NCBI GenBank assembly: GCA_021810105.1
Contig: JAJZJM010000002.1
Coordinates: forward strand, 1 to 64,000
Origin: Microcaldota archaeon
GTDB lineage: Archaea; Micrarchaeota; Micrarchaeia; Micrarchaeales; Micrarchaeaceae
Length of the DNA stretch: 64,000 bases
Direction: 5' to 3'
How positions within the stretch are numbered: position 1 is the stretch's first letter; each line of letters opens with the position of its first letter. This document shows positions 28,430 through 48,219 of this stretch, in pieces. The position numbers and the translations under genes were made by a program. The notes beneath the pieces are model-generated. The model did not search any database, was not told where the DNA came from, and saw nothing but the letters and a program-made list of their open reading frames with translations.

Positions 28430-28627
28430 TCATATTTTGCCATTGAATTTAGAACCTGCGGCAAGAAGGAAGATCCCGCCAAGAAGAGCGATTAGGGCGT
28501 AGATTGGCAGGTTCAGACTTAGGCGCAGGACTACACTGCTAACGTATAGGGCGCCCAGGATGAACAGAAGAATGAAGATGTGATCTATTTTGCCCAATTT
28601 GGGCCTTTTGCTGAAACCCTTTGCCAT
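28430..28627 (-). CDS. Small two-helix membrane protein
   Basis: 65 aa: a basic N-terminus (KGFSKRPKLGK), two transmembrane segments (HIFILLFILGALYVSSVVL and ALIALLGGIFLLAAG), and a short basic tail. No family recognised. ATG at 28627. It may be expressed from a promoter in the 28630-28720 gap. Confidence 0.6.
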   Translation of the reverse strand: MAKGFSKRPKLGKIDHIFILLFILGALYVSSVVLRLSLNLPIYALIALLGGIFLLAAGSKFNGKI

Positions 28628-30206: not shown

Positions 30207-30466
30207 AAATCTTCTTTGGCAACCCGAAAGAAGATTTTGCAGAGGCGAGCACCCCAGGGGTGTCATACACCCCTCTGACACGGGGGGTGCGAGCCAGAGG
30301 GCACGGTAGCCTGAGCATAGCGAAAGGCTAATTTTCCTAAGCGGAAAATAGGGTCCTCTGGCTCGCAGCGAGCCTCTGCATTCTTGGCTGACCTTCTTCC
30401 TAAGAAGGTCGAAGCTCAAGCCCAAGAGGGGTTAGCGCAGCGCGGGGTGAATTGGGCTGGAGCTTC
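30207..30466. repeat. Dense cluster of nested inverted repeats (structured RNA or DNA element)
   Basis: Six perfect or near-perfect stems lie in 260 bp. These are 11 bp at 30207-30217/30227-30237; 8 bp at 30239-30246/30372-30379, enclosing 10 bp at 30291-30300/30355-30364, which in turn encloses 7 bp at 30331-30337/30343-30349; 9 bp at 30390-30398/30402-30410; and 15 bp with one mismatch at 30411-30425/30452-30466. The tract is far richer in G+C than its flanks. The nested arms form a multi-branch junction. The right end overlaps the 3' end of the ORF at 30400-30843. Confidence 0.7.
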
Positions 30467-30843
30467 CTAGGCCTTGATTTTAAGCGATTTCTGCGTCCTA
30501 TGCCTTTAGCGCGCTTATCAAGCTCTAAGGCGATCTTATCCTTGCATATCTCCACAAAAAGCGCGATTGTGGGGTCGTTTATGGCCTTTGGCTCTTCTAT
30601 GAAGAAAGCCAGGGCTTCGGCGTAAGCCTGCAGCTTGGCGGCTTTCTTCTCTTCCTCAGTTTGAGCTGCCATTATGCAACGCCTCTGCCTTGCGGTAGTC
30701 GCTGAGCCCCTTGCTCTGAGATAGGAAACGAAATCTTCAACATATTGCTTGTTTACTGATAATGTCTTTGCTTCTCTTATCTGCCTTGAAAGCCTGAGCA
30801 CATCCTTATCGTAGTTCCGGACTTCATAATATGCTGCTTCCAT
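30400..30843 (-). CDS. Unknown Arg/Lys/Ala-rich protein
   Basis: 147 aa, helical and charged (EEEKKAAKLQAYAEALAFF) with a very basic segment (KRAKGIGRRNRLKSRPRK). The C-terminal 20 residues are encoded inside the hairpin cluster and look low-complexity. No family recognised. The ATG at 30843 is 72 bp from the left boundary of the tRNA-His element. It could be a nucleic-acid-binding protein, but the frame may also be partly spurious. Confidence 0.45.
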   Translation of the reverse strand: MEAAYYEVRNYDKDVLRLSRQIREAKTLSVNKQYVEDFVSYLRARGSATTARQRRCIMAAQTEEEKKAAKLQAYAEALAFFIEEPKAINDPTIALFVEICKDKIALELDKRAKGIGRRNRLKSRPRKLQPNSPRAALTPLGLELRPS

Positions 30844-30914: not shown

Positions 30915-30927
30915 AAGGCCTTAGCCG
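30915..30927. other. Far attachment site (copy of tRNA-His 3' end)
   Basis: AAGGCCTTAGCCG, identical to 39902-39914. It contains the last 11 nt of tRNA-His, and the similarity stops beyond 13 bp on both sides. It marks the probable chromosomal boundary of the element. Confidence 0.65.
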
Positions 30928-31015
30928 AGCCGTAGTGGTTCGGTTTCAGAACCTTACAGAAACAGTTTCTGAATATCCATCATCTATTTATACGATTAAT
31001 TTATTAACTCTTTCT

Positions 31016-31255
31016 ATGGAAAATGCAATGCAAGATTTTAGGAAAAAGAGAACTCATAAGATAGTCGCCAAAGATCATAGCAGAGTAATGAGGCTAGGAA
31101 ACGGTCAGCTTATTGCAACAGTACCCAGGGAGATTGCGAGATGGAAGCATATAGATAAGGCCACGCTGCTTAAATGGAGCGATGCAGGAGCGAATAGAGT
31201 GCTTATTGAGGTAGTTGTCGAGCCACAACCAGATAATGCTCCAGAAAGTAAATAA
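31016..31255 (+). CDS. AbrB-like DNA-binding protein of the element
   Basis: 79 aa. The core RVMRLGNGQLIATVPREIARW is a SpoVT/AbrB-type swapped-hairpin motif (compare Gln-Leu-Ile-x-x-Val-Pro-x-x-Ile-Ala), followed by KATLLKWSDAG and a beta strand. It is probably a transition-state-like regulator of the element. The TTTATA box at 30987-30992 places the ATG at 31016 at the leaderless distance. A nested hairpin (31258-31347) begins 3 bp after its stop. Confidence 0.7.
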   Translation: MENAMQDFRKKRTHKIVAKDHSRVMRLGNGQLIATVPREIARWKHIDKATLLKWSDAGANRVLIEVVVEPQPDNAPESK

Positions 31256-31257
31256 AC

Positions 31258-31347
31258 GCAAATAAAAAGCGCAATGGTGTGATTTCAGTCCATCCACGCA
31301 CACCATATCTTTTCAAATGCGTTTTTAGGTGGTTTCTTTTTATTTGC
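31258..31347. repeat. Nested inverted repeats after the AbrB-like gene
   Basis: An outer perfect 12-bp stem GCAAATAAAAAG (31258-31269) pairs with 31336-31347. Inside it, ATGGTGTG (31274-31281) pairs exactly with CACACCAT (31299-31306). It starts 3 bp after a stop codon, so it may be a terminator, a small RNA or a recombination or replication site of the element. Confidence 0.6.
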
Positions 31348-31426
31348 CTCATGCATTCTTCGTATAGCAAACTTAACTTCACCACATTGAACCTTTAAGG
31401 TAGGTTACGCATTCTACATTGATTAC

Positions 31427-31567
31427 ATGAAAAATAACGTAACACTACCTTTAGGTAGTATAAGTGTGATAGACAAAGTAGAAAAAGATATCGGTCTGAT
31501 ATCAGGCATCTTTGGTAACAGTTGCGGAAGATCGAGGGATTTTGTAGGAATCGCAAAACTTCAGTAA
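31427..31567 (+). CDS. Possible 46-aa small protein or gene remnant
   Basis: ATG to TAA encodes MKNNVTLPLGSISVIDKVEK and DIGLISGIFGNSCGRSRDF. The 'pVIDkV-kdiGLi-giFg' pattern recalls the N-terminus of some DDE transposases, so this could be a truncated transposase rather than a functional small protein. Low certainty. Confidence 0.3.
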   Translation: MKNNVTLPLGSISVIDKVEKDIGLISGIFGNSCGRSRDFVGIAKLQ

Positions 31568-31594
31568 GATATTGAAGAGTGAGTTGGAATTTGT

Positions 31595-33541
31595 CTACCC
31601 ACTTAAAGTTACATATGCGTGGCTATTCGAGCAAGTAGCTCCGCGTGCACCGGTGAAGAGCTTGATATAATAAGTACCAGATGGAAGGTACTCGCTTTGA
31701 GTGTTACTAAGGCAATACAGAGGGTAACTTCCGCTGGTATTTGCGTTGATATTTGATGCAAATCCATTATTGTTTGTAATATTCAGTGTAATTGCCACCA
31801 GTTGCCCCGTGCTATATGCTAAGGTCAAGTATCCACCTAACCAGCTACACGAACCGCTTGTGCTAGAGCTTGCCGAACTTTCAGTTAGTTCAAAACTGCT
31901 ACAAGAACCTGAACCAGTTGAAGATATTGTTGTTATATAAGGGACTGTTGTGTAAATAGAGGTGGTAGAATTTAATGTGTATTGTATAGTTGTTGGAAAA
32001 GTCGTTGTATATTGTGCGCCTGAATTACCAAAAATACTTGCAAAAAAGTTTTCTATTGAAGCTATAAAATTAGAAAATGTACCACCGAATCCGCTATTGC
32101 TTGTCTGATTGTTAGACGTTATTATTGTAGTAGTATTTTGAGAAGTATGTTGTATGATTGTAGTAGGTGCTGTCGTATAGAAAGGTATAGTTGTAGTCGA
32201 TATCTGAGTTATTGGAATAGTTTCATTAGAAAAACCAATTATCCCTCTCTGATAAGAAATTATTTTGTTATCTATACCAAATTTATTACCTCCGATTAAT
32301 GTACTATTAATAAGATAAATCGTGTTATTTATTCCTGAAATGCCCGCTAATATTCTGGCTTTCGCATTTTTCAAAGTCACGATATTATTTATTCCAGATA
32401 AGTCTACACTTATGTTCCCGTTTACTATTGTGATGTTGTTTCCTACCCCACTTAAATCCAACAATACAATATTGTTCATCGAAGATGACGTTATATTAAG
32501 AAGGTTACTAATTCCAGATAGATCTACGTCTGTTGGATCTGTTAAGTAAAAGTTATTTGATTGACCTATTCCAGAAACGCTGAGGATATGGCTAGAAGTG
32601 ACTATTTGTGGTAGTGTGGCATTATATTGTATTTTAACAATAGAGACATTATTTATATATGGATAATTTATTGTTGTTGTCTGAGAAAGTCCGCTAGGAA
32701 TTGTGGTGGTCGGAATGTTTGATGGTGAATAACTGCCACTTATATACGTCCGTGAATTGGCATATTCTGTAGCTCCATTAGAATAAAATTCGTAAAGAGA
32801 CGGACTGGTAAAAGATATTGGTGAGACTGTTGAGTTCCAGAATATATTCTGCTTTTGATAGCAATTTATGTCTGCACAATAAAATTCATCTGCCCAAAGC
32901 CAAGCTGCGGCATTTGATGTACTACCAAAAATAGAATAATTCACACCCTGCTCATTGCCGTAATATGGGTTAGAATGATACCATTCGGTCATAAGCCCAG
33001 TAAAATAGCCATTAGTCGCAGTAGCATAAGGATTACCTACAAAAGTGGATGCACCTTCTGCGCTGTACGACGTACTGAAGGATGACCCTGTGTTTAGATC
33101 CTTAGCCAACATTATCACACTTCCACCAGAGAAGTACAAGTTCAATAGCACTTTATCACCTTGATTAATGGGCCCATTAAACTCTAGCGTGCCTCCTCCG
33201 CCATTTTGGGGGTATATTGAGCGCCCATTAGGGTCAAAAACCTCATAACTAACGGCCCATCCCTGATTAGGTAACCAATTATAAGATAATCCTACCTGAT
33301 ACCAATATCCCGTATTAGAATATCCATTTAACAAATAGGCTGGCCCATAGCCACCACTTGAACTTTGTGCTATTGCAGTTACATTATACGCTAACGATGT
33401 ATAATCTTGTGTATAAGTAATACCTAACTGTTCATCATAAGGCGTACTTGTTCCAGACGCATGAGAGATGTTTGGCACTAGCAGAAAGACCAAAGCAAAA
33501 GTCAATATTAAGTAACTCCATCTTCTACCGTAACCGTTCAT
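31595..33541 (-). CDS. Large secreted surface protein with beta-helix-like repeats
   Basis: 648 aa. It has a Sec signal peptide (RRWSYLILTFALVFLLVPNI, cut near HASG), then a Trp/Tyr/Gly-rich beta domain (about 30-270, YGPAYLLNGYSNTGYWYQVG, reminiscent of thermopsin-like or lectin-like ARMAN proteins). Next comes a repeat region (about 330-430) with LSGISN, LSGVGNNITIVNG and LSGINNIVTLKNA, suggesting a right-handed beta-helix. A Thr-rich linker and a Cys-containing C-terminal domain follow. No C-terminal anchor is seen. It is followed (in transcription order preceded) by the anchored protein at 33547 with a 5-bp gap. It may be a virion/pilus-like or adhesin component carried by the element. 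Confidence 0.75.
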   Translation of the reverse strand: MNGYGRRWSYLILTFALVFLLVPNISHASGTSTPYDEQLGITYTQDYTSLAYNVTAIAQSSSGGYGPAYLLNGYSNTGYWYQVGLSYNWLPNQGWAVSYEVFDPNGRSIYPQNGGGGTLEFNGPINQGDKVLLNLYFSGGSVIMLAKDLNTGSSFSTSYSAEGASTFVGNPYATATNGYFTGLMTEWYHSNPYYGNEQGVNYSIFGSTSNAAAWLWADEFYCADINCYQKQNIFWNSTVSPISFTSPSLYEFYSNGATEYANSRTYISGSYSPSNIPTTTIPSGLSQTTTINYPYINNVSIVKIQYNATLPQIVTSSHILSVSGIGQSNNFYLTDPTDVDLSGISNLLNITSSSMNNIVLLDLSGVGNNITIVNGNISVDLSGINNIVTLKNAKARILAGISGINNTIYLINSTLIGGNKFGIDNKIISYQRGIIGFSNETIPITQISTTTIPFYTTAPTTIIQHTSQNTTTIITSNNQTSNSGFGGTFSNFIASIENFFASIFGNSGAQYTTTFPTTIQYTLNSTTSIYTTVPYITTISSTGSGSCSSFELTESSASSSTSGSCSWLGGYLTLAYSTGQLVAITLNITNNNGFASNINANTSGSYPLYCLSNTQSEYLPSGTYYIKLFTGARGATCSNSHAYVTLSG

Positions 33542-33546
33542 TTAAA

Positions 33547-34062
33547 TCAGTTTGTATAGTGCGCAACAATAGGATTTACTACGGTCACTGTGTCCTGAGT
33601 TATTATGCCCGGGTCGTAGAAAATCAGCGTGTATTGTCCGGCTGAAAGTTGGGCATTTATCGTAGACCCTTGTGTGTCACCATAATAGTATTGTGATGAA
33701 GCTATGCTTCCTTGATTTTGACTAAAAGCTCCGTATTGCGCTGGCGTAAGTATTGCCACCTCAACTTTACCTTGAGACGTGTAAGAGCCAGTTACGTTTA
33801 TAGAGTAAGAGCCTGATGGCACTGTGAAATTAACTCCGTAATAACCCCCAGCATTTATAGAGAAGACTTGCCCTTGCGAAAGCAGGTCTATTGTATAGAT
33901 TTGAGGTACAGTAGAAGGCGTTGATGAATATCCACCGCCCCCGTAAGGTGATGAACTTCCTCTACCAAAAACGTATGCTAAGAACGCTATTACTATTATT
34001 ACTACGACTACAGTAGCAATTATGCCTGTGTTACTCTTTTTCTTCGTATTAGTACCAGCCAT
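33547..34062 (-). CDS. Membrane-anchored small beta-sandwich protein of the element
   Basis: 171 aa: a basic N-terminus (MAGTNTKKKSNTG), one transmembrane helix (IIATVVVVIIVIAFLAYVF), a Gly/Ser/Pro-rich linker, then a beta-rich domain with NFTVPSGSYSINVTG and AGQYTLIFYDPG, resembling a PPC-like or pre-peptidase beta sandwich. It has an N-in, C-out topology. It is the first gene of a two-gene unit with the large secreted protein (5-bp gap) and diverges from a winged-helix regulator across a palindromic operator. Confidence 0.75.
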   Translation of the reverse strand: MAGTNTKKKSNTGIIATVVVVIIVIAFLAYVFGRGSSSPYGGGGYSSTPSTVPQIYTIDLLSQGQVFSINAGGYYGVNFTVPSGSYSINVTGSYTSQGKVEVAILTPAQYGAFSQNQGSIASSQYYYGDTQGSTINAQLSAGQYTLIFYDPGIITQDTVTVVNPIVAHYTN

Positions 34063-34107
34063 TTACCCACGTTAGTTCTTGTATTAGAAAGTATATAAAG
34101 GTTATTC

Positions 34108-34126
34108 GTACAAGGTATTGTACAAT
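34108..34126. promoter_or_regulatory. Palindromic operator between divergent element genes
   Basis: GTACAA-GGTA-TTGTAC (34108-34123) overlaps a perfect palindrome ATTGTACAAT (34117-34126). It lies just downstream of a TATATAAAG box (34091-34099) and 18 bp upstream of the winged-helix gene, so that regulator may bind here. Confidence 0.5.
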
Positions 34127-34143
34127 ACTCATAAGGTGCTATT

Positions 34144-34365
34144 TTGGCTAAACGATTGCATGGAGAAGAGATTGACAACGCTATTTTGAAGTATCTTACA
34201 GACCTGCCGTTTTCAGCCACTACAGAGATGGTTGCGAAGCAGCTAAACGTGGCATGGTATACTGCTCAGATGCACTTATTCAAACTGGAACAAGATCGCA
34301 AGGTGCGCTATTTCAAAATCGGCCGACAAAACCAATGGATTATTTCCTCTAAGATGACTAAGTAG
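34144..34365 (+). CDS. Winged-helix regulator of the element
   Basis: 73 aa, a single winged HTH. The helix-turn-helix lies in TTEMVAKQLNVAWYTAQMHL and the beta wing in RKVRYFKIGRQNQWII. The start is TTG at 34144, as no ATG occurs before the first helix; an AAGGTG Shine-Dalgarno-like sequence precedes it. It overlaps the next gene by a few bases, so they are cotranslated. Confidence 0.72.
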   Translation: MAKRLHGEEIDNAILKYLTDLPFSATTEMVAKQLNVAWYTAQMHLFKLEQDRKVRYFKIGRQNQWIISSKMTK

Positions 34366-34373
34366 TGAACGTA

Positions 34374-34907
34374 ATGCCTACACGCAAAAGGACTCCAAGA
34401 ACCCGAACCCCCCATGAAGAGGCTATTCTTGATTTGCTAGAATTGTTGTATAAACATTATCCTAAAGAGTATATAAGCGAAAAGGATACGCCTAAACTAG
34501 CTAAATACTCTCTTATTATTGGCGAAGCCCAAGCAAGACGCCTAGTGCAGGTTGCCCCTGCACTTCCAGCAAGTCATACTGATGCCGGTTATCCTAGATA
34601 TATGATAACGATAAAGGGCATAGAACTTCTAACTCTGTTAAGACTTGGTGACAGAGTAGTCGAAATGAGAGATTCGTCTCTAAGACTTGAGAGGTTCACT
34701 AAAGCCTTGCTTCTGCTTACTGCCATGCTTGTCAGCGTAAATCTACCTCTTATAGCAGAAGCACTAAAGAACCTTCAATGTACTGCATATCCTACTTATT
34801 GTTCACAGCCATTATGGAATGCAGTGTATTATTGGATATCGCTCGTTAGTTTATTCCTTGTACTTTGTGTGATCGTATATTACTTATGGCCTAGAAAGAA
34901 GAAATAG
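34374..34907 (+). CDS. HTH-like membrane protein of the element
   Basis: 177 aa. The N-terminal 100 residues are soluble and basic with a winged-helix-like pattern (EEAILDLLELLYKHYPKEYI then a basic helix and ITIKGIELLTLL). Two transmembrane helices follow (ALLLLTAMLVSVNLPLIAEA and WISLVSLFLVLCVIVYYL) with a Cys-pair loop between them and a C-terminal PRKKK. Membrane-tethered regulators of this shape occur in archaeal viruses and plasmids. GTG at 34365 would overlap the upstream stop; ATG at 34374 is preferred. Confidence 0.65.
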   Translation: MPTRKRTPRTRTPHEEAILDLLELLYKHYPKEYISEKDTPKLAKYSLIIGEAQARRLVQVAPALPASHTDAGYPRYMITIKGIELLTLLRLGDRVVEMRDSSLRLERFTKALLLLTAMLVSVNLPLIAEALKNLQCTAYPTYCSQPLWNAVYYWISLVSLFLVLCVIVYYLWPRKKK

Positions 34908-35218
34908 CCTTATGAAGGCATGTACTGCAACACGATAGGACTAACAATAGAAACATCAACTATATCGGTCGTGCTCGGATTATAGAAAAACCAGACAATA
35001 TTCATTACCTCCAACTACACTAAAATTTGGCTTCCTCTCCGTTGTTAAAAGTATTATAATATGGATTATATTTTCTTATCCTACTTGATCTTACCCATAA
35101 CCTTGCCATAAACCTTTATCCTCGTGCCTTCTTTTATATGTTTCTACATATACCATTCTTTTTAAATACTGCCATAATTATAAGTGTTATCAATGACGAC
35201 AAGATAACAGTGTTATCA
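34908..35218. other. Short gap with promoter of the zinc-finger gene
   Basis: About 310 bp with no gene. The right part holds a TTTTTAAATA box (about 35158-35168) and the first copy of the TGTTATC repeat element. An in-frame ATG at 35138 could extend the zinc-finger gene upstream through this region. Confidence 0.5.
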
Positions 35219-35395
35219 ATGATTCAATGCCCACATTGCGCTGAAATACGTAATTTTAACAGTAGTGCATCATTCAGGGTACATAAATCCCGTTATCATA
35301 GGGGTTTAGAGTATAAAAAGCCTATAAAGGCAGAGAAAATCAATGTTAAGGATAACGCTGTTATCACTGACGACAAGATAACACCTTCCGATAAC
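35185..35395. repeat. Cluster of GTTATC/GATAAC sites with a duplicated 25-bp element
   Basis: Eight GTTATC or GATAAC hexamers occur in 210 bp. Two are arranged as TGTTATC-N11-GATAACA at 35185-35209 and again at 35359-35383, with 24 of 25 bases identical. Single sites are at 35212, 35292, 35351 and 35390. The first copy overlaps the promoter of the zinc-finger gene and the second lies inside it. This may be an operator array or replication iterons. Confidence 0.6.
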
Positions 35396-35533
35396 AAAAA
35401 TATACAAAATCGCATAGAAAAACAGCAGGAACCGCCCGAAAATGACACTGAAACAGAGCAAGCAGAAGAAGAGGGAGATGGAATCCCAAGATACTTGTGG
35501 CATACACGCAGGCCGAGATGGCGGGATTTGTAA
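35219..35533 (+). CDS. C2H2-type zinc-finger protein of the element
   Basis: 104 aa. An N-terminal finger CPHC...HKSRYH (C2H2 spacing) is followed by an acidic, Lys/Gln/Glu-rich disordered tail ending GIPRYLWHTRRPRWRDL. Small single-finger proteins are common in archaeal viruses and plasmids and usually bind DNA. A start at 35138 would add a hydrophobic N-terminus and duplicate the VI-x-DDKIT peptide encoded by the repeat. I prefer ATG at 35219, where MIQCPHC starts the finger. Confidence 0.65.
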   Translation: MIQCPHCAEIRNFNSSASFRVHKSRYHRGLEYKKPIKAEKINVKDNAVITDDKITPSDNKNIQNRIEKQQEPPENDTETEQAEEEGDGIPRYLWHTRRPRWRDL

Positions 35534-35594
35534 CTTATTTCTTTCTGTATGCTTCTTTTTAACTACACTAACTGCATTACTACACTAACTACAC

Positions 35595-37067
35595 CTAAAA
35601 TGTGCCTTTTGCCAACTTCCAAATTCCTTCTTTTGGCTGATATATCTCGCCTGCCTTTGCCATCCCTGATAATATAGGTCTTATATTCTCTGGTGCGTTT
35701 TCAAAGTTCATACCTAATAAAACGCCTTCTTTCGCCTTTGGGTCGTTAAATAAGTCCTTAGCTTCTTGAAGTAATACTTGATTTTCTTTCAATTGCTTTT
35801 GAGGTTCTTTTAGCGTTCCTGTCTGCTCGATCAATTCTAAGGCGTGGCGTACCTGCAAATAGTTCCTAAGGCTTTCCTTATTTATGGTATATTCGTACCC
35901 TTGCTTCAGCCTGCACTTTTTCTTTATTACACCTATACGCTTTAAGCAACGACCAACCCACTTGCTATTAAGCCAATCTTGCTGCCCATTCGTGTCTTGG
36001 TGCGCTTTTATTATATCGCTTGTAGTAGTTACGGGGAAGTCGGTATTTATTGTTAGGTTATAACGGCTGACCGCTAAAGCTGTGTCCGCATCACCTTCCA
36101 GAGCCTCTTCTTCTTTTAATCTAGCCTGTATTGATGCTAAAGCTAAGGTATCTTGGAATAAATCGCTATAAGTCTGGCCTTGTATTGAGATAGTGAAAGC
36201 AATGGCGAATAATGGCAGCCATAGCTCAAAATCACGACCATTTAAATAACACATATACACCAGATTAATAAATGAGTTTATCTCGTCATTGGTGTAGTTT
36301 GGTGTAGTTAGTGTAGTATGTAGTTTAATGTTTGATGGTTGATTGCTATTTATAGAACGATGGTTTAACATTTGTTCATAATATGGGTTTAATAAGCCTT
36401 CTTCAATTGCTAAGCCTACACCGATATCTGCATTCTCGAAAAAAGCACGCAAAGCCGTAATTCTTGGGTCTAAATCAAATAATTCTAACATTCGTGTTAT
36501 ATCTTTCTTTAAAGTTTTCTGCATTATCATAGTAATGCATCTATCTTCTAGTACCGCATCCAACCCTGATATATTTGCTAAGACCACAGGATTGTAGACC
36601 TCATACTCAGCTATCTGGAAGCCACCAAGCTTATCTTTTTCAGTACGCAGAACCTTGCCACTCCTTTTATAACATACATTAAGAAGGTCTTTCAAGGTGG
36701 CTTTTTCCTTAGAATTGAGACGCTCTGCTTCATCTATGATAATGCAACGTTTTTTAGCGCATATGCGAAAGAATGCCGCCTCTGAAATATTTGGTGTGCA
36801 TATCGCTTCTGGGATCAACGCATTAATCAACCCTGCTGCCCTAGTCTTACCAGAGCCTTTGCTAGCATTTATATAAAGGATAGGAAAGGTTCGAAAAGCT
36901 TCTTTATATGGCGCAGCCATAATCCATAAGGCTAACATCCTTTTGTTAGCATCATCTAAGTCGAGATAGCTGTCAATTACTTCGATCAGCCCTTCATATA
37001 CAGATGGCAACCTCTTAGCAATCTTATCCTGTTCGGCGAGTTCAATATCTAAAGCGTTAAAATTCAT
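35595..37067 (-). CDS. AAA+/P-loop ATPase, probable replication helicase of the element
   Basis: 490 aa. Walker A is NASKGSGKTRA (residues 67-77) and Walker B is CIIIDEAERL (108-117). A sensor-like LANISGLDAVLEDRCI follows, with a C-terminal winged helix (about 380-425, TSDIIKAHQDTNGQQDWLNS). The layout fits DUF927/DUF3631-type and plasmid replication ATPases. It lacks recognisable primase motifs. It is the last gene of a coupled operon whose ATG overlaps the preceding TGA (ATGA). It would load at or unwind the element origin. Confidence 0.75.
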   Translation of the reverse strand: MNFNALDIELAEQDKIAKRLPSVYEGLIEVIDSYLDLDDANKRMLALWIMAAPYKEAFRTFPILYINASKGSGKTRAAGLINALIPEAICTPNISEAAFFRICAKKRCIIIDEAERLNSKEKATLKDLLNVCYKRSGKVLRTEKDKLGGFQIAEYEVYNPVVLANISGLDAVLEDRCITMIMQKTLKKDITRMLELFDLDPRITALRAFFENADIGVGLAIEEGLLNPYYEQMLNHRSINSNQPSNIKLHTTLTTPNYTNDEINSFINLVYMCYLNGRDFELWLPLFAIAFTISIQGQTYSDLFQDTLALASIQARLKEEEALEGDADTALAVSRYNLTINTDFPVTTTSDIIKAHQDTNGQQDWLNSKWVGRCLKRIGVIKKKCRLKQGYEYTINKESLRNYLQVRHALELIEQTGTLKEPQKQLKENQVLLQEAKDLFNDPKAKEGVLLGMNFENAPENIRPILSGMAKAGEIYQPKEGIWKLAKGTF

Positions 37068-37225
37068 ATTTTCACCTTAGACAGAACAAATATTATCGTG
37101 GCCTTAATCAGGGGCATCCCGAAATAGCTGCCCTTGCTTCCTAAAGTTTTGTACTCTTCGCTGTTAATAAATTCGTTATAAAGCTTGTCAATTTCGGCAT
37201 TAGTCGGTTTTTGCTCCTCGCTCAT
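37064..37225 (-). CDS. Small element protein coupled to the ATPase
   Basis: 53 aa: MSEEQKPTNAEIDKLYNEFI then SEEYKTLGSKGSYFGMPLIK. Its ATG overlaps the TGA of the upstream 98-aa gene and its TGA overlaps the ATG of the ATPase. Translational coupling on both sides is good evidence it is real. Function unknown; it may be a helicase accessory or loader. Confidence 0.65.
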   Translation of the reverse strand: MSEEQKPTNAEIDKLYNEFINSEEYKTLGSKGSYFGMPLIKATIIFVLSKVKI

Positions 37226-37518
37226 TGTAACACCACTTTTTTTAGAGCCTCAGCCACTCCAGGCCGTATTTTATTTGCGAATTTAAAGGCATCCTCGAAT
37301 TCAGCCTTAGTTGTTATCCTATAAAGTAGTATAACGCCGGAATTCTCATCGGCAACCGCTAGTAAGCAGTCAAAAGGATAATCAGCCAGAAAAAGCTTTG
37401 CCAGATTTTGCTTTAATAATACCTTACACATTGCACCTTGACGATAAATCTTGCAGACCTCAACGCTGAGGCTACCATTGCCATTCTCTTTAAGTACCTG
37501 TTTTTGTATTATTTTCAT
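37222..37518 (-). CDS. Small element protein of the replication operon
   Basis: 98 aa, alpha/beta, with no signal or membrane segment: MKIIQKQVLKENGNGSLSVE, then CKVLLKQNLAKLFLADY and KKVVLQ at the end. No family recognised. It is coupled to the next gene by an ATGA overlap, and an AAGGTAG Shine-Dalgarno-like sequence lies 10 bp upstream of its start. Confidence 0.65.
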   Translation of the reverse strand: MKIIQKQVLKENGNGSLSVEVCKIYRQGAMCKVLLKQNLAKLFLADYPFDCLLAVADENSGVILLYRITTKAEFEDAFKFANKIRPGVAEALKKVVLQ

Positions 37519-37615
37519 GTAAATCTACCTTATTGGCCTGCGGTGTAGAATCTGCAGGCTTCTTTTTCTGAGCTGCTGTCCATAGCAATATTTTTGGGAG
37601 AAGTTTATTTTGCAT
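37490..37615 (-). CDS. Possible 41-aa basic protein
   Basis: ATG to TAA encodes MQNKLLPKILLWTAAQKKKP followed by a polar tail. It lies 10 bp after the RHH gene and overlaps the next gene by 29 bp in another frame. Its position in the operon supports it, but it has no recognisable motif. Confidence 0.35.
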   Translation of the reverse strand: MQNKLLPKILLWTAAQKKKPADSTPQANKVDLHENNTKTGT

Positions 37616-37625
37616 TTACTCGTAC

Positions 37626-37766
37626 TTATTTCTCATCCATCATATCAAAATCAATAAGAGTTCTGATATAGCTGGATACTTTGCATCCCTGCTGAACCTT
37701 TTTATCAAGAAACTTAACTTCGCTACGGTCTAAATAGATCAAAACCGCTTTTTTTCTCATGTACAT
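37626..37766 (-). CDS. Ribbon-helix-helix (CopG-like) regulator
   Basis: 46 aa: MYMRKKAVLIYLDRSEVKFL and then VQQGCKVSSYIRTLIDFDMM. The basic beta strand followed by two helices, with the 'kvSsYIRtLI' second helix, is the RHH DNA-binding fold typical of plasmid copy-number regulators. It is the first gene of the replication operon and diverges from the 250-aa gene across a shared inverted repeat, so autoregulation is likely. Confidence 0.7.
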   Translation of the reverse strand: MYMRKKAVLIYLDRSEVKFLDKKVQQGCKVSSYIRTLIDFDMMDEK

Positions 37767-37795
37767 CACGAACCATATTTAACGATAAGGGTTAA

Positions 37796-37840
37796 TAAAC
37801 GTACCGCTGTTGTACATTTAAAAATAATTAGGTACGTTTA
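37796..37840. promoter_or_regulatory. 10-bp inverted repeat flanking a TATA box
   Basis: TAAACGTACC (37796-37805) and GGTACGTTTA (37831-37840) are exact reverse complements 25 bp apart, bracketing TTTAAAAATA (about 37816-37825). It lies between the RHH operon and the divergent 250-aa gene, a likely control point for both. Confidence 0.6.
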
Positions 37841-37842
37841 AG

Positions 37843-38595
37843 GTGAGCCTTATGAACAGACATGATCTAGTGCAGTTCTTTAAAGATAGAGACAGGGGGA
37901 GATACATGGTTCATTTTTTGAAAAAACCGATAACTATTACTGAAGTAGCAAAAAGTATGAGCATTCAGAACAGAAATAAACTTACAACTATGATTAAATC
38001 GTTATCTGATTATAAAGCTAAGAAAGCAGGGTTCCGGAGCAAAAATTCAAAACCAATCCAATTGGAATATAGAATAATTGCTGATTATGTTGCAGAATAT
38101 TTTACTCTAAATGGGGATGAAGAGAAATCTTTATTGGCATTTATATCAGAACCCACAGTAAATAAATTTTTATTGAGCAATAATAAAGACCTAGACCAAC
38201 TTTTAAACAAATTAATCCTATGGATATTTAAGTTAGATATTATATCGAGAACTCCAAAGCTTGGTCTAGCCTACGGTTCTACCTTTGATCTCCTACTTGA
38301 TGAAGGTTCCTATCATGCTGAAAAATTGGATTTAGAAATAGCCTTAACTATGTTAGCTAGGGAGGGCAAATACAAATTTACTTTTATTGATAAGATAACC
38401 AAATCGAACAAGAAAATTTATATCAGCATTAAAAATATCTACGATTTCATAGATAGTGATTTGAAAGGTAGAGAATTCCAAACAAAACGCAATCTTACAA
38501 TACACAATAGGCTAAAACAGGATAAAAACTTGATTTACGACCCTTATACTACTCATATTCAGACAAGGGCTGAGTTTATGAAACATGCCTTATGA
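37843..38595 (+). CDS. Unknown element protein with N-terminal HTH
   Basis: 250 aa. Residues 25-75 (KKPITITEVAKSMSIQNRNK) look like a winged HTH. The rest is Lys/Leu/Ile-rich helical (LLNKLILWIFKLDIISRTPK, IYISIKNIYDFIDSDLKGRE) with no known motif. It could be an initiator or regulator. The start is either GTG at 37843, 18-27 nt after the TTTAAAAATA box, or ATG at 37852. Its stop overlaps the convergent integrase by 6 bp. Confidence 0.65.
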   Translation: MSLMNRHDLVQFFKDRDRGRYMVHFLKKPITITEVAKSMSIQNRNKLTTMIKSLSDYKAKKAGFRSKNSKPIQLEYRIIADYVAEYFTLNGDEEKSLLAFISEPTVNKFLLSNNKDLDQLLNKLILWIFKLDIISRTPKLGLAYGSTFDLLLDEGSYHAEKLDLEIALTMLAREGKYKFTFIDKITKSNKKIYISIKNIYDFIDSDLKGREFQTKRNLTIHNRLKQDKNLIYDPYTTHIQTRAEFMKHAL

Positions 38596-39840
38596 TTTTA
38601 TATTCTCGATTTCTTTCTTAGTTTTGTCAGGTAAATGCTGATAAAGAAGTCCTATCGCATCCTCTAATTTTTGTATTCTCTCTTTCATCTGCTTAGCATT
38701 CTCTAAATCCTCTATCTGCCTTTTAATATCGAGAGGCAGGCTGCATTTCTTACAATATTCGACAGTAGTCTCATTATCAAAATGGCATCGCATACATCTT
38801 TTAACTGCAAGCAGAGGTCTTTCAGGCTCTTTATTAGAGGATATCCCGTTAGCTCTGAGTACAGCTTCATCTAGGTCTCTCCCTGACATATGCACATATA
38901 CAGAAGCCATCCTGCTATCGCCTGTCCATCCAAAATACATCTTAAGCTGCTGCTCTGTTAATGTTTTAGCCATGCATGTCGCTCTGCTGAACCTGAATAG
39001 ATGGGAATAAATATGCTTTTTTATCCCTGAACGCTCATTTAGCTTCCGTATAAACATCCTGAATGCTTCATAGTTCATCGGCCTATCCGTCGGTATGTTA
39101 TTGTTAAGAATGACAAAGAGAGGCTCTTCGGGATCGGCATTTTTCCTATAAGTGTTGATATAACTAATCAAGAACGGTACAGAAAACACTATCGGCACTC
39201 TTCTCGAACCTGTTTTTCCTCTGTAATCCACGATAACATAGCTCATCTCCTCCGATAGCACAACGGATTTTATCTTTAATCTAAGGAATTCCCCAGCTCG
39301 CAAGCCTGCATCGTATAATAGTGAAACCATCGCTTTGTCTCTCTGATTATTGCAACTCTCTATAAGCTTGATGATCTCTGCTTCGCTTAGCATGTCCTCT
39401 GGAAGCTTCTTTTTGCTAACCGTCTTAACCTCAATCCATGCGACCTCTTCAGGATAAGGGGTTCGCTTATTTCCACCCCTAAGCCACCTATAAAAGTCCT
39501 TAAAGGTGAGCCTAATCTTATTCTTTGTAATATCTGCCGTGCCTTCATCAGTGATCTCGCCTTGCTTATCAAGCCTTTTCATCGAGTTTATCCTTTTGAT
39601 AAGCTGCTCGATATCCGCTTTTTTAAGCTCCTTCGCATCCTTACCATCAAGGAATACCAGAATACGCCTTAACTCCCTGCATCTGCGAGCCACAGTTTGA
39701 GGCATATCGTTCATTGACAGGTAGTCCAAGTATTTCTCTGCGTATTCGAGATTGGGCTTCTGTACGTGCTTTCTGAGCCTTGCAAGCTCTTTTGATAGGC
39801 GATACTCCATACCGTTTATGTAGTCCTTTGGGGTTTCCAT
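38590..39840 (-). CDS. Tyrosine recombinase/integrase with C-terminal zinc ribbon
   Basis: 416 aa. An N-terminal SAM-like core-binding domain (about 30-125) is followed by the catalytic domain with Arg181 (DAGLRAGE), a Lys in the beta hairpin, the HLFR box (His280, Arg283), GWTGDS and the nucleophile Tyr315 (VYVHMSG). After it comes a CxxC...CxxC zinc ribbon (RCMRCHFDN, YCKKC, residues 349-366) and a coiled coil. It resembles the archaeal XerA/integrase family with a zinc-ribbon tail. An AATAAATAG box (about 39863-39872) favours ATG 39840 over 39855. It lies 64 bp from tRNA-His, its probable attachment site. Confidence 0.9.
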   Translation of the reverse strand: METPKDYINGMEYRLSKELARLRKHVQKPNLEYAEKYLDYLSMNDMPQTVARRCRELRRILVFLDGKDAKELKKADIEQLIKRINSMKRLDKQGEITDEGTADITKNKIRLTFKDFYRWLRGGNKRTPYPEEVAWIEVKTVSKKKLPEDMLSEAEIIKLIESCNNQRDKAMVSLLYDAGLRAGEFLRLKIKSVVLSEEMSYVIVDYRGKTGSRRVPIVFSVPFLISYINTYRKNADPEEPLFVILNNNIPTDRPMNYEAFRMFIRKLNERSGIKKHIYSHLFRFSRATCMAKTLTEQQLKMYFGWTGDSRMASVYVHMSGRDLDEAVLRANGISSNKEPERPLLAVKRCMRCHFDNETTVEYCKKCSLPLDIKRQIEDLENAKQMKERIQKLEDAIGLLYQHLPDKTKKEIENIKS

Positions 39841-39901
39841 AGGTTTCTTTGGCATCCGATCACTATTTATTCGAGATGGATAGCCCAGAAACTGAACCCT
39901 T

Positions 39902-39914
39902 AAGGCCTTAGCCG
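39902..39914. other. Attachment site at tRNA-His 3' end
   Basis: AAGGCCTTAGCCG, matching 30915-30927. It includes the last 11 nt of the tRNA acceptor/T-arm region plus two bases downstream of the gene. Confidence 0.65.
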
Positions 39915-39976
39915 GGAGTCGGACCCGGTCTTGAAGGTCCACAGCCTTCCGTGCGAGCCGTTACACCACTAAGGCC
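39904..39976 (-). tRNA. tRNA-His (GUG)
   Basis: 73 nt including the encoded extra G at -1 facing the discriminator C, the His identity element. The acceptor GCCTTAG pairs with CTAAGGC, the anticodon GTG sits in a CTGTGGA loop, and the T arm is CCGGG/CCCGG. Its 3' end is the attachment site of the adjacent element, and it lies wholly inside the 3' end of an open reading frame on the same strand. Confidence 0.93.
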
Positions 39977-46557: not shown

Positions 46558-46635
46558 ACATACCATTTAGCTGTTGATATATCATATGTTATTGCATGAA
46601 CATTTTAATAACTGTGCAAAATAGCAATATAATAA

Positions 46636-46707
46636 GCCCGGGTAACTCAGTGGAAGAGTGCCAGTTTCGTAAACTGGAGGTCGGGGGTTCAAATCCCTCT
46701 CCGGGCT
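46636..46707 (+). tRNA. tRNA-Thr (CGU)
   Basis: 72 nt. The acceptor GCCCGGG pairs with TCCGGGC, the discriminator is T, the anticodon CGT sits in the TTCGTAA loop, and the T arm is GAGGG-like with GGTTCAAATCC. Its 3' half, from the anticodon loop, is repeated exactly at 48157 and in altered form at three other sites. Confidence 0.95.
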
Positions 46708-46729
46708 TACATTGCAGGGTTTAAAGCCC
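46667..46729 (+). repeat. Cassette site A (tRNA-Thr 3' half plus flank)
   Basis: The anticodon-loop-to-3'-end half of tRNA-Thr (46667-46707) plus TAC and a GGGTTTAAAGCCC palindrome at 46717-46729. The first 44 bp are identical to site C. Confidence 0.8.
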
Positions 46730-46805
46730 CTAGCATCTTATAAGCACTGTTACGTTGTACAACTAATTCTTATTTTTATCCAAACAAGTAGTGTATGGTG
46801 TGTAA

Positions 46806-47552
46806 TTGGTAAAAGAGGTAGAAGGGCAGGATTTACTCTACAAGCAGTTCGCAAAGTACTACGATTTGCTTTATAGTAAAGTGCTGGATCATAAGGAGGT
46901 GGCAAAGACCATTACAAAACTTGCCGAGAGATATGGTAAGTCTGATGGTAGAGACCTGCTAGACATAGGATGCGGAACTGGCGCGGACTTATTCTATCTG
47001 AGGCGTAAATTTAACTGTACGGGAGTCGATATAAACGTTATGATGCTGGCCATCGCAAAAAGAAACGTAAGAGGGGTACGATTCCTGAAGGGAGATATGC
47101 AGAACCTCATATTAAACAAAAGATTCGATGTTATAACAATCTTGGGTAGTGCAATAGGTTATGCCATAACTTATGCCAATCTGAAGAAAGTATTTAGAAC
47201 TATTTCAAGGCACCTTAAACCTGGCGGAATCACAATAATAGAACCATGGATAGAAAAAGGGGACTTCATATCAGGCTACATCGATATGGATACATATAAT
47301 TCAAATAACCTAAAGCTAGCGAGGGTCTCATATTCTAAGAAAAAAGGCAGTACCTCAATTGTAGAGTTTGGATTTCTTATTGCAGAAAAAAATAAAGGGA
47401 TTACGTATCTAAAAGATGTCGCAGTAGATGGATTATTTGAAGATGCTAAAATTATAAAAATGATGGGCGCTGTAGGCTTAGATGCTTGTGTTATAAAAAA
47501 CGTAAAAGGTTCATACAGAGGAAGATACATTGTGGGCACCAAAGCGGTTTAA
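46806..47552 (+). CDS. SAM-dependent methyltransferase (cassette 1)
   Basis: A 248-aa class I methyltransferase: LLDIGCGTGADLFYL (motif I, about residues 50-64), TGVDINVMML, FLKGDMQNL, FDVITILGSAIGY and KPGGITIIEPW. The C-terminal part (residues 150-248) is a lid seen in the TylM1/DesVI-type N,N-dimethyltransferase group, so an amino-sugar or small-molecule substrate is possible. The start is TTG at 46806; no ATG precedes motif I, and a TATTTTTATCC box lies about 27 nt upstream. Site B begins 13 bp after its stop, giving a 'gene plus site' cassette. Confidence 0.8.
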   Translation: MVKEVEGQDLLYKQFAKYYDLLYSKVLDHKEVAKTITKLAERYGKSDGRDLLDIGCGTGADLFYLRRKFNCTGVDINVMMLAIAKRNVRGVRFLKGDMQNLILNKRFDVITILGSAIGYAITYANLKKVFRTISRHLKPGGITIIEPWIEKGDFISGYIDMDTYNSNNLKLARVSYSKKKGSTSIVEFGFLIAEKNKGITYLKDVAVDGLFEDAKIIKMMGAVGLDACVIKNVKGSYRGRYIVGTKAV

Positions 47553-47565
47553 ATAAGATGCGACG

Positions 47566-47624
47566 AGGTTCTTATCCCTAAAGGATAAAAGGCTCTCCTG
47601 GCTATGTCTCTGGGGGTTAAAACC
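47566..47624 (+). repeat. Cassette site B (degenerate)
   Basis: Contains TTATCC-CTAAA-GGATAA (a 6-bp hairpin), CTCTCCTGGCTATGT and GGGGGTTAAAACC. It is about 80 percent identical to site E over 57 bp by eye. Confidence 0.65.
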
Positions 47625-47652
47625 AGTTAATTTCTGCTCTTGCTGCGTTTTC

Positions 47653-47838
47653 TTATAAATACTTTAAAATGTCTTCTTTTGTTAGGCCACAGTCTGTTAG
47701 AATTTTATTAAGCAGTCTTTTACCCAGTTCTCTATTATGATAGGGAATTGTTGTATAGTGGATACCGTCGGTCAGGAATATGTGACTTCCTTTTTGTCTC
47801 AGCGCCTTAAAGTTGTAGCGTTTGATTATTATCTTCAA
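47653..47838 (-). CDS. hicA: HicA-family mRNA interferase toxin, start unclear
   Basis: 61 aa from the TTG at 47838: double-stranded-RNA-binding-like fold with the catalytic RQKGSHIFL motif (HicA His). The family normally begins about 11 residues earlier; in frame upstream the codons read ARLVVKDAELL, matching that N-terminus, but the expected start position (47869-47871) is ATA, not ATG. So either ATA or TTG is used or the start has mutated. It follows hicB directly on the same strand (12 bp to the ATA). HicA cleaves mRNA and is neutralised by HicB. Confidence 0.75.
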   Translation of the reverse strand: MKIIIKRYNFKALRQKGSHIFLTDGIHYTTIPYHNRELGKRLLNKILTDCGLTKEDILKYL

Positions 47839-47883
47839 GAGCTCAGCATCCTTAACAACGAGTCGAGCTATAAAATCGCCTTA

Positions 47884-48069
47884 CTATGCAGTCGCTTTCA
47901 TCTCCAATTTTGGCTTTTTCATTTCGAGCAATCCTTCTATGGTAACCTCTATGGCTTCCTTAAGGTTCTTCTTGAGTTCCTTCAGGGTCTTTGCCTGTGT
48001 ATTTATATGTAAAGAAGGGATCCGTGCAGCATACACACCGTGTTCCTTCCATACCTCTATTTCTGACAT
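47884..48069 (-). CDS. hicB: HicB-family antitoxin
   Basis: 61 aa with the partial RNase H-like HicB fold: EIEVWKEHGVYAARIPSLHI, then TLKELKKNLKEAIEVTIEGL. Length is typical for stand-alone HicB without a DNA-binding tail. It is transcribed before hicA, the order seen in many HicBA loci. ATG at 48069. Confidence 0.85.
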   Translation of the reverse strand: MSEIEVWKEHGVYAARIPSLHINTQAKTLKELKKNLKEAIEVTIEGLLEMKKPKLEMKATA

Positions 48070-48156
48070 TTTTATTACCTATACATTATTAGACACTGAA
48101 GATATTTAAAGCCAGTACAGGGTTAGTATATCGTTTACCAATTTTATACGATAGTC

Positions 48157-48219
48157 TCGTAAACTGGAGGTCGGGGGTTCAAATCCCTCTCCGGGCTTAC
48201 TTCGCGGGGTTTAAAGCCC
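48157..48219 (+). repeat. Cassette site C (exact tRNA-Thr 3' half)
   Basis: 44 bp identical to 46667-46710, then an imperfect continuation to the GGGTTTAAAGCCC palindrome. The copy starts in the anticodon loop and lacks a 5' half, so it is not a functional tRNA; it is a typical target-site duplication from tRNA integration. Confidence 0.85.

Follow-up and report, generated by a model that had tools for sequence, protein, structure and literature searches.

A 9-kb segment of the genome of a Microcaldota archaeon (Micrarchaeota; Micrarchaeaceae) is, on the evidence of its sequence, a real integrative element located at the 3′ end of a tRNA-His gene. The segment spans positions 30,915 to 39,914 of contig JAJZJM010000002.1, whose first 64,000 nucleotides, hereafter referred to as the window, were analyzed. 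The source genome totals 821,087 bases in 5 contigs and is 93.6% complete. We think it likely that the segment is a plasmid-like integrative element of Micrarchaeota whose circular form recombines into the tRNA-His 3′ end. DPANN archaea have tiny genomes and are often attached to other cells, and their mobile elements are, to our knowledge, poorly known. A preliminary description, made from the letters of the window alone, had proposed an integrated element of a DPANN host at this tRNA. The host assignment agrees with a relative of the same family, G051, which corresponds to Candidatus Micrarchaeota. The integration is borne out by a repeat serving as attachment (att) site, by the placement of the integrase, by a sister element at a tRNA-Arg gene, and by tRNA-His sites that are occupied differently in genomes of the same genus. 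The elements that define the integration are as follows.

39903..39976, minus strand: tRNA-His (gtg), the integration target, whose 3′ end is the proximal att copy (ARAGORN; an identical tRNA is found in genomes G032 and G213)
39902..39914, no strand: proximal 13-bp att copy, the tRNA 3′ end (repeat search and ARAGORN)
30915..30927, no strand: distal 13-bp att copy (repeat search)
38590..39855, minus strand: 421-amino-acid (aa) tyrosine recombinase (integrase) with a C-terminal zinc ribbon (PF00589, PHROG and invariant residues)

The 13-bp repeat noticed in the preliminary description, AAGGCCTTAGCCG, has exactly two copies in the window when both strands are searched, at 30915-30927 and 39902-39914, and a search allowing 2 mismatches returned one additional, weaker match. 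By chance, any given 13-mer would be expected to occur about 0.002 times in a sequence of this size. A direct repeat of the tRNA-His 3′ end is thus present at both borders of the element, and the extent of the element fits these two att ends.

The integrase was matched by profile searches to PF00589 (E = 2e-20) and to the PHROG integrase family (E = 8.5e-28). Its full catalytic set (R186, K214, H285xxR288, W310 and Y320) is invariant across six homologues, as are the zinc-ribbon cysteines C354, C357, C368 and C371. The open reading frame (ORF) is intact and starts 48 bp from tRNA-His, with the att site upstream of the gene, in agreement with the earlier identification of a zinc-ribbon tyrosine recombinase beside the tRNA.

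Of 295 genomes sampled from the phylum, 108 contain homologues of this integrase. At 18 of the 22 loci measured, the focal one counted, the 3′ end of a tRNA on the same strand lies 31-52 bp before the inferred integrase start, and these 18 loci use nine tRNA types (His, Asn, Arg, Thr, Ala, Val, Asp, Glu and Pro). Nothing else argues as strongly as this fixed geometry that the family inserts at tRNA 3′ ends. The remaining four loci comprise one unreliable overlap (G117) and three that have no tRNA beside the integrase and do not share the focal gene order (G221, G079:C27 and G051). The G221 contig begins at the integrase, and the att of the G051 element was not found, the only 13-bp match there falling in unlikely places. 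Beside some integrases (G042, G134; L088:8668-8705, L092 and others) a second T-arm-like sequence (GGTTCAA...) was also observed about 21 bp past the tRNA 3′ end, which is a candidate for an arm-binding site of the integrase.

Further evidence comes from a sister element in genome G007, which belongs to another genus of the same family. This element is located at a tRNA-Arg gene and carries an integrase with 45% identity to the focal one. Three further genes of the focal element have counterparts there.

37843..38595, plus strand: 250-aa protein with a winged helix-turn-helix (wHTH)-like N-terminus by inspection, convergent with the integrase; no Pfam match
37626..37769, minus strand: 47-aa ribbon-helix-helix (RHH)-like protein at the head of an operon; 20/40 residues identical to the G007 element gene; no Pfam match
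31016..31255, plus strand: 79-aa end gene, AbrB-like by inspection, reading inward from the distal att; no Pfam match

The wHTH-like gene of G007 has 24% identity to the focal one (E = 5e-12) in the same convergent orientation, and its RHH-like gene is accompanied by additional small RHH-like genes. The end gene of G007 encodes 68 aa, also reads inward, and is 55% identical over 67 aa to the focal 79-aa gene, which is, judged by this comparison, a conserved element gene. Just outside it, at +6194, lies a copy of the tRNA-Arg 3′ end, CGGCGAGGGCG, an 11-bp att at the same tRNA position as the focal att. The four frame genes (integrase, wHTH, RHH and end gene) therefore follow the same order and orientation at tRNA-His and at tRNA-Arg. 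The G007 element also has an HNH nuclease, between its integrase and wHTH-like gene, and its middle holds two nucleases with NucS_C/MrcB_N and Shedu SduA_C domains, where the focal element has an AAA+ ATPase and surface proteins instead. The frame of integrase, convergent wHTH, RHH and inward end gene is thus kept while the middle is swapped, and the focal element therefore belongs to a modular family of integrative elements that target tRNA genes. Rather than the same gene order at a non-tRNA locus lacking the repeat, the four-gene relative was found at another tRNA with a repeat of its own.

The genome under study also contains a second element of the same integrase family, at tRNA-Asn (L078:15102-19279, G000:C4), with an integrase and a wHTH homologue before the contig ends. 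Homologues of the 250-aa protein occupy the same place beside this integrase and that of G007. Related elements in other Micrarchaeota, which the preliminary description had proposed to look for, were therefore found, with the same integrase and edge genes, other cargo and other tRNA genes.

The tRNA-His site is occupied differently within the genus. It is followed by flavoprotein-like and transporter-like genes in G032, by three genes in G213, and by an integrase of the focal family in G058. The last residues of the G032 transporter-like protein resemble, by inspection, a truncated window ORF at 28430-28627, which points to an old flank. One further feature of the window lies just outside the distal repeat.

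30400..30843, minus strand: 147-aa ORF with an integrase-like N-terminus and no catalytic domain (integrase profile E = 1e-3, window-wide scan)

This ORF shows 38% identity over 52 aa to an integrase N-terminus and is probably the remnant of an earlier element. Its position outside the repeat suggests, with moderate support, that the tRNA-His site has been used repeatedly.

Moving inward from the tRNA, the integrase (minus) and the convergent 250-aa gene (plus) are followed by an RHH-led operon (minus) that ends in a 490-aa ATPase. Beyond the ATPase lie genes for a zinc-finger-like protein, a transmembrane (TM) protein and a small wHTH protein (all plus), two surface proteins (minus), and the 79-aa gene that reads inward from the distal repeat. 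The genes and sites of this interior are listed below.

37490..37615, minus strand: 41-aa ORF, uncertain (ORF calling only)
37222..37518, minus strand: 98-aa operon protein of no family (ORF calling; Pfam and PHROGs without a match)
37064..37225, minus strand: 53-aa operon protein with a 4-bp overlap on each side (ORF calling)
35595..37067, minus strand: 490-aa AAA+-like ATPase, proposed replication helicase (Walker-type motifs GSGKT and IIIDE by inspection)
35186..35395, no strand: cluster of 8 GTTATC/GATAAC sites, including two GTTATC-N11-GATAAC units 174 bp apart (motif count)
35138..35533, plus strand: zinc-finger-like protein, the likelier start being the ATG near 35220 (CxxC...HxxxxH pattern by inspection)
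34365..34907, plus strand: 180-aa protein with two hydrophobic C-terminal segments (inspection)
34144..34365, plus strand: 73-aa winged-helix regulator (PF04703 FaeA, 25.6 bits, cut-off 20.7)
33547..34062, minus strand: 171-aa predicted membrane-anchored protein with an extracellular beta-sandwich (AlphaFold predicted local distance difference test (pLDDT) 80.6; GOLD/CBM-like matches)
31595..33541, minus strand: 648-aa putative secreted surface protein (signal-like N-terminus by inspection)

ORF calling placed the RHH-like gene, the small ORFs and the ATPase where the preliminary description had them, with 4-bp overlaps at 37222-37225 and 37064-37067. Both of its surface proteins are likewise present. 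The gene set was also said to be unfamiliar and for the most part it is, with the integrase alone giving strong matches in Pfam and PHROGs; DUF3060 and other Pfam matches were sub-threshold and were set aside.

The 490-aa ATPase, we infer, acts as a replication helicase. Distant relatives were identified in G130 (30% identity, with an RHH-like ORF upstream), in G117 (587 aa, also beside an integrase), and in G238 and G253 (803 aa), with matches outside the phylum to Streptomyces plasmid DUF3631 proteins and to Methanobacterium virus PhiF3. Pfam recognizes DUF3631 in two of five members of the family and Prim-Pol in one, the assignment being remote for the focal protein. This remote relationship to DUF3631/PrimPol-linked proteins speaks for a plasmid-like element that brings its own replication module. 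No ATPase relatives were found in the scan of viral contigs, and the structure model of the ATPase (pLDDT 50.5) was too weak for structure searching. Near the G051 integrase lies an AAA_25-type ATPase unlike the focal one, which suggests that replication modules are swapped within the family. The GTTATC/GATAAC cluster around the zinc-finger gene packs 8 sites into 210 bp, whereas no 220-bp stretch elsewhere in the window has more than 2; it may be an origin or an operator. As a separate observation, the PrimPol-ATPase of G253:C37 (L035) lies beside many membrane proteins and, by inspection, a HerA-like ATPase and a reverse-transcriptase-like ORF, and this locus is possibly a larger element.

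It can be read directly from the DNA that the att repeats are present, that the integrase keeps its catalytic set and zinc ribbon intact, that the distance between integrase and tRNA is fixed among relatives, and that a sister element shares the frame at another tRNA. Building on these features, we propose that the tyrosine recombinase would join a circular form of the element to the tRNA-His 3′ end through a short site identical to that end. Integration would rebuild the tRNA-His gene, the distal repeat being the 3′ end that was displaced, and the element could later be excised and circularized again. Excision or copy number may be controlled by the RHH, wHTH and AbrB-like proteins, and the AAA+ ATPase might act as the helicase in replication, alongside proteins of the host replisome. 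The surface proteins would be cargo that alters the host cell surface.

Whether such an element is a plasmid or a virus had been left undecided in the preliminary description. The plasmid-like reading is now favored but unproven. Pfam and PHROGs scans of the focal proteins revealed no recognizable gene for a capsid, packaging, rolling-circle replication or conjugation, which leaves the virus without support. The segment could nevertheless be a provirus or virus satellite, for instance of a pleomorphic membrane-vesicle virus, with its surface and TM proteins serving as virion proteins and its hallmark genes too diverged to detect. The membrane-anchored and secreted proteins would suit this idea, as would the finding that, among named viruses, the most similar integrases belong to Geoglobus acetivorans pleomorphic virus 1 (38%) and ThalV2 (33%), which have circular genomes of 13-16 kb. 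In addition, the 24-kb viral contig IMGVR_UViG_2627853753_000003 (L126) of IMG/VR encodes a zinc-ribbon integrase 41% identical to the focal one. This integrase was seen, by inspection, to adjoin tape-measure-like and beta-helix-like proteins, which indicates that integrases of this family are used by a tailed-virus-like element as well. However, when the focal proteins were compared with both pleomorphic virus genomes (phmmer, E ≤ 1) only the integrase matched, with no match to VP3, VP4 or Rep, and the PHROGs scan yielded no capsid or packaging family. The 171-aa protein, for its part, has no close relative in the viral contigs scanned, and its fold matches are generic beta-sandwiches. We therefore regard a viral origin as quite improbable.

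A fixed, immobile island, in which an old integration has ceased to excise and its genes have become host genes, is also unlikely, if slightly less so. No relative of the integrase closer than ~48% was found in the genomes searched, and the older remnant alongside shows that elements do decay at this site, both of which count in favor of such an island. Against this, the integrase ORF is intact, as are its catalytic residues and the two att copies, and searches with the ATPase and the 171-aa protein did not find the gene set in any of eight genomes of the same genus. Certain observations also count against a plasmid-like integrative element as we describe it. The distal repeat of G007 occurs twice (+6194 and +7085), such that the end of that element is not unique, and no exact empty site bearing an identical left flank was found in the genomes compared. 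Moreover, the focal ATPase itself lacks DUF3631, and no replication initiator was recognized among the element proteins. On balance, we still consider the plasmid-like integrative element the likely reading.

The surface proteins connect the element to other integrase loci. In the model of the 171-aa protein a TM helix spans residues 12-32 and the ectodomain is confidently predicted, its matches to GOLD/CBM-like folds having modest TM-scores. Its counterparts in G221, a genome of another family, and in G051 share 64-68% identity with it and lie next to integrase homologues. A partial homologue of the 648-aa protein (29% over 161 aa) lies near a G079 integrase. The 7.7-kb G221 contig, which carries the integrase and surface-protein homologues, also encodes an 845-aa DndB/DpdB-like protein with EVE-like and Hjc-like parts (L084:4281-6818). 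On the far side of the G051 integrase region is an 84-aa protein with two hydrophobic helices (L106:8161-8415) that recalls, by inspection only, spindle-virus capsid proteins or holins.

Other tRNA 3′ ends of Micrarchaeota are likewise followed by partial copies of themselves. We surveyed up to 9.5 kb downstream of each of 28 Micrarchaeota tRNA-His genes (224 kb in total) for 12-mers from the tRNA's own 3′ end. This yielded 8 binned matches at 7 distinct sites, since one G213 copy straddles two bins, compared to 0.05 expected and 0 in two controls. The copy in G204 bears that tRNA's own base change. Such copies may mark either mobile cassettes or remnants. In G213 (L027:6450-8940), three partial copies of 12-15 bp each bound one gene, possibly forming a cassette array; by inspection these genes are peptidase-like, short-chain-dehydrogenase-like and nucleotidyltransferase-like. 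Within the window, tRNA-Thr(cgt) has a partial copy of about 42 bp at 48158-48199, and the intervening island (46635-48199) holds an S-adenosylmethionine methyltransferase and a HicA/HicB-like pair but no integrase. Among the other stretches of the same genome that were surveyed, tRNA-Val(gac) (L115:511-4410, G000:C5) has a 27-bp copy at +3822, with an AIPR/AbiU-like protein, a type II DNA methyltransferase and an HNH-like ORF between, a defense-like content again without an integrase. A speculative reading, which we think doubtful, is that the tRNA 3′ ends of Micrarchaeota are shared docking sites where integrase-bearing elements like the focal one, and integrase-less one-gene cassettes moved in trans by such integrases, stack into integron-like arrays without attC sites.

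The combination of a recognizable integrase, a fixed tRNA-integrase distance and swappable cargo can serve as a simple search rule for such elements in metagenome-assembled genomes. Across the family, the cargo includes a replication module, surface proteins, and Shedu-like and other nucleases. Its members are candidate vectors, and they suggest a way in which genes for surface and defense functions pass between these archaea.

Among known systems, the tycheposons of Prochlorococcus are bacterial, tRNA-linked tyrosine recombinase elements with swappable cargo; compared by description only, they resemble the focal element in the tRNA link and the cargo and differ in being bacterial. Membership among integrons was considered but is not claimed, the stacked repeats in Micrarchaeota being tRNA 3′ ends. 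The Archaeoglobales pleomorphic viruses (Pleolipoviridae) have a related integrase, theirs in a small circular genome, but also possess VP3, VP4 and a rolling-circle Rep, of which phmmer detected no homologues in the focal element. Nor does the focal element look like an integrative and conjugative element, as no VirB4/VirD4-type family was present among the ten proteins scanned against Pfam and PHROGs. The SSV, pTN3 and pT26-2 elements share an archaeal tyrosine recombinase and a tRNA target with the focal element. Their suicidal integrases are encoded by genes that are split upon integration (review PMC8371274), whereas the focal gene is intact and its att lies upstream rather than inside it.

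The closest likeness is to the cryptic integrated elements of Thaumarchaeota, which are small and encode a tyrosine integrase, wHTH and RHH regulators, variable cargo, and a range of replication proteins, among them AAA+ helicases and primpol-S3H (Krupovic et al., 2019; PMC6563490). More than half of the thaumarchaeal integrations are in tRNA genes, with repeats down to 8 bp, and the class is defined by exclusion, with no signature genes (PMC6563490). The focal element fits this class in that it is integrated and integrase-bearing, and Pfam and PHROGs revealed no viral, conjugative, casposon or insertion sequence genes. A limited search of the open-access literature found no published description of the Micrarchaeota family with its integrase, wHTH, RHH and end gene. 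Its kind is thus already known from other archaea and the family itself is little described. Compared with the thaumarchaeal elements, the Micrarchaeota family is defined by a shared four-gene frame and a zinc-ribbon integrase.

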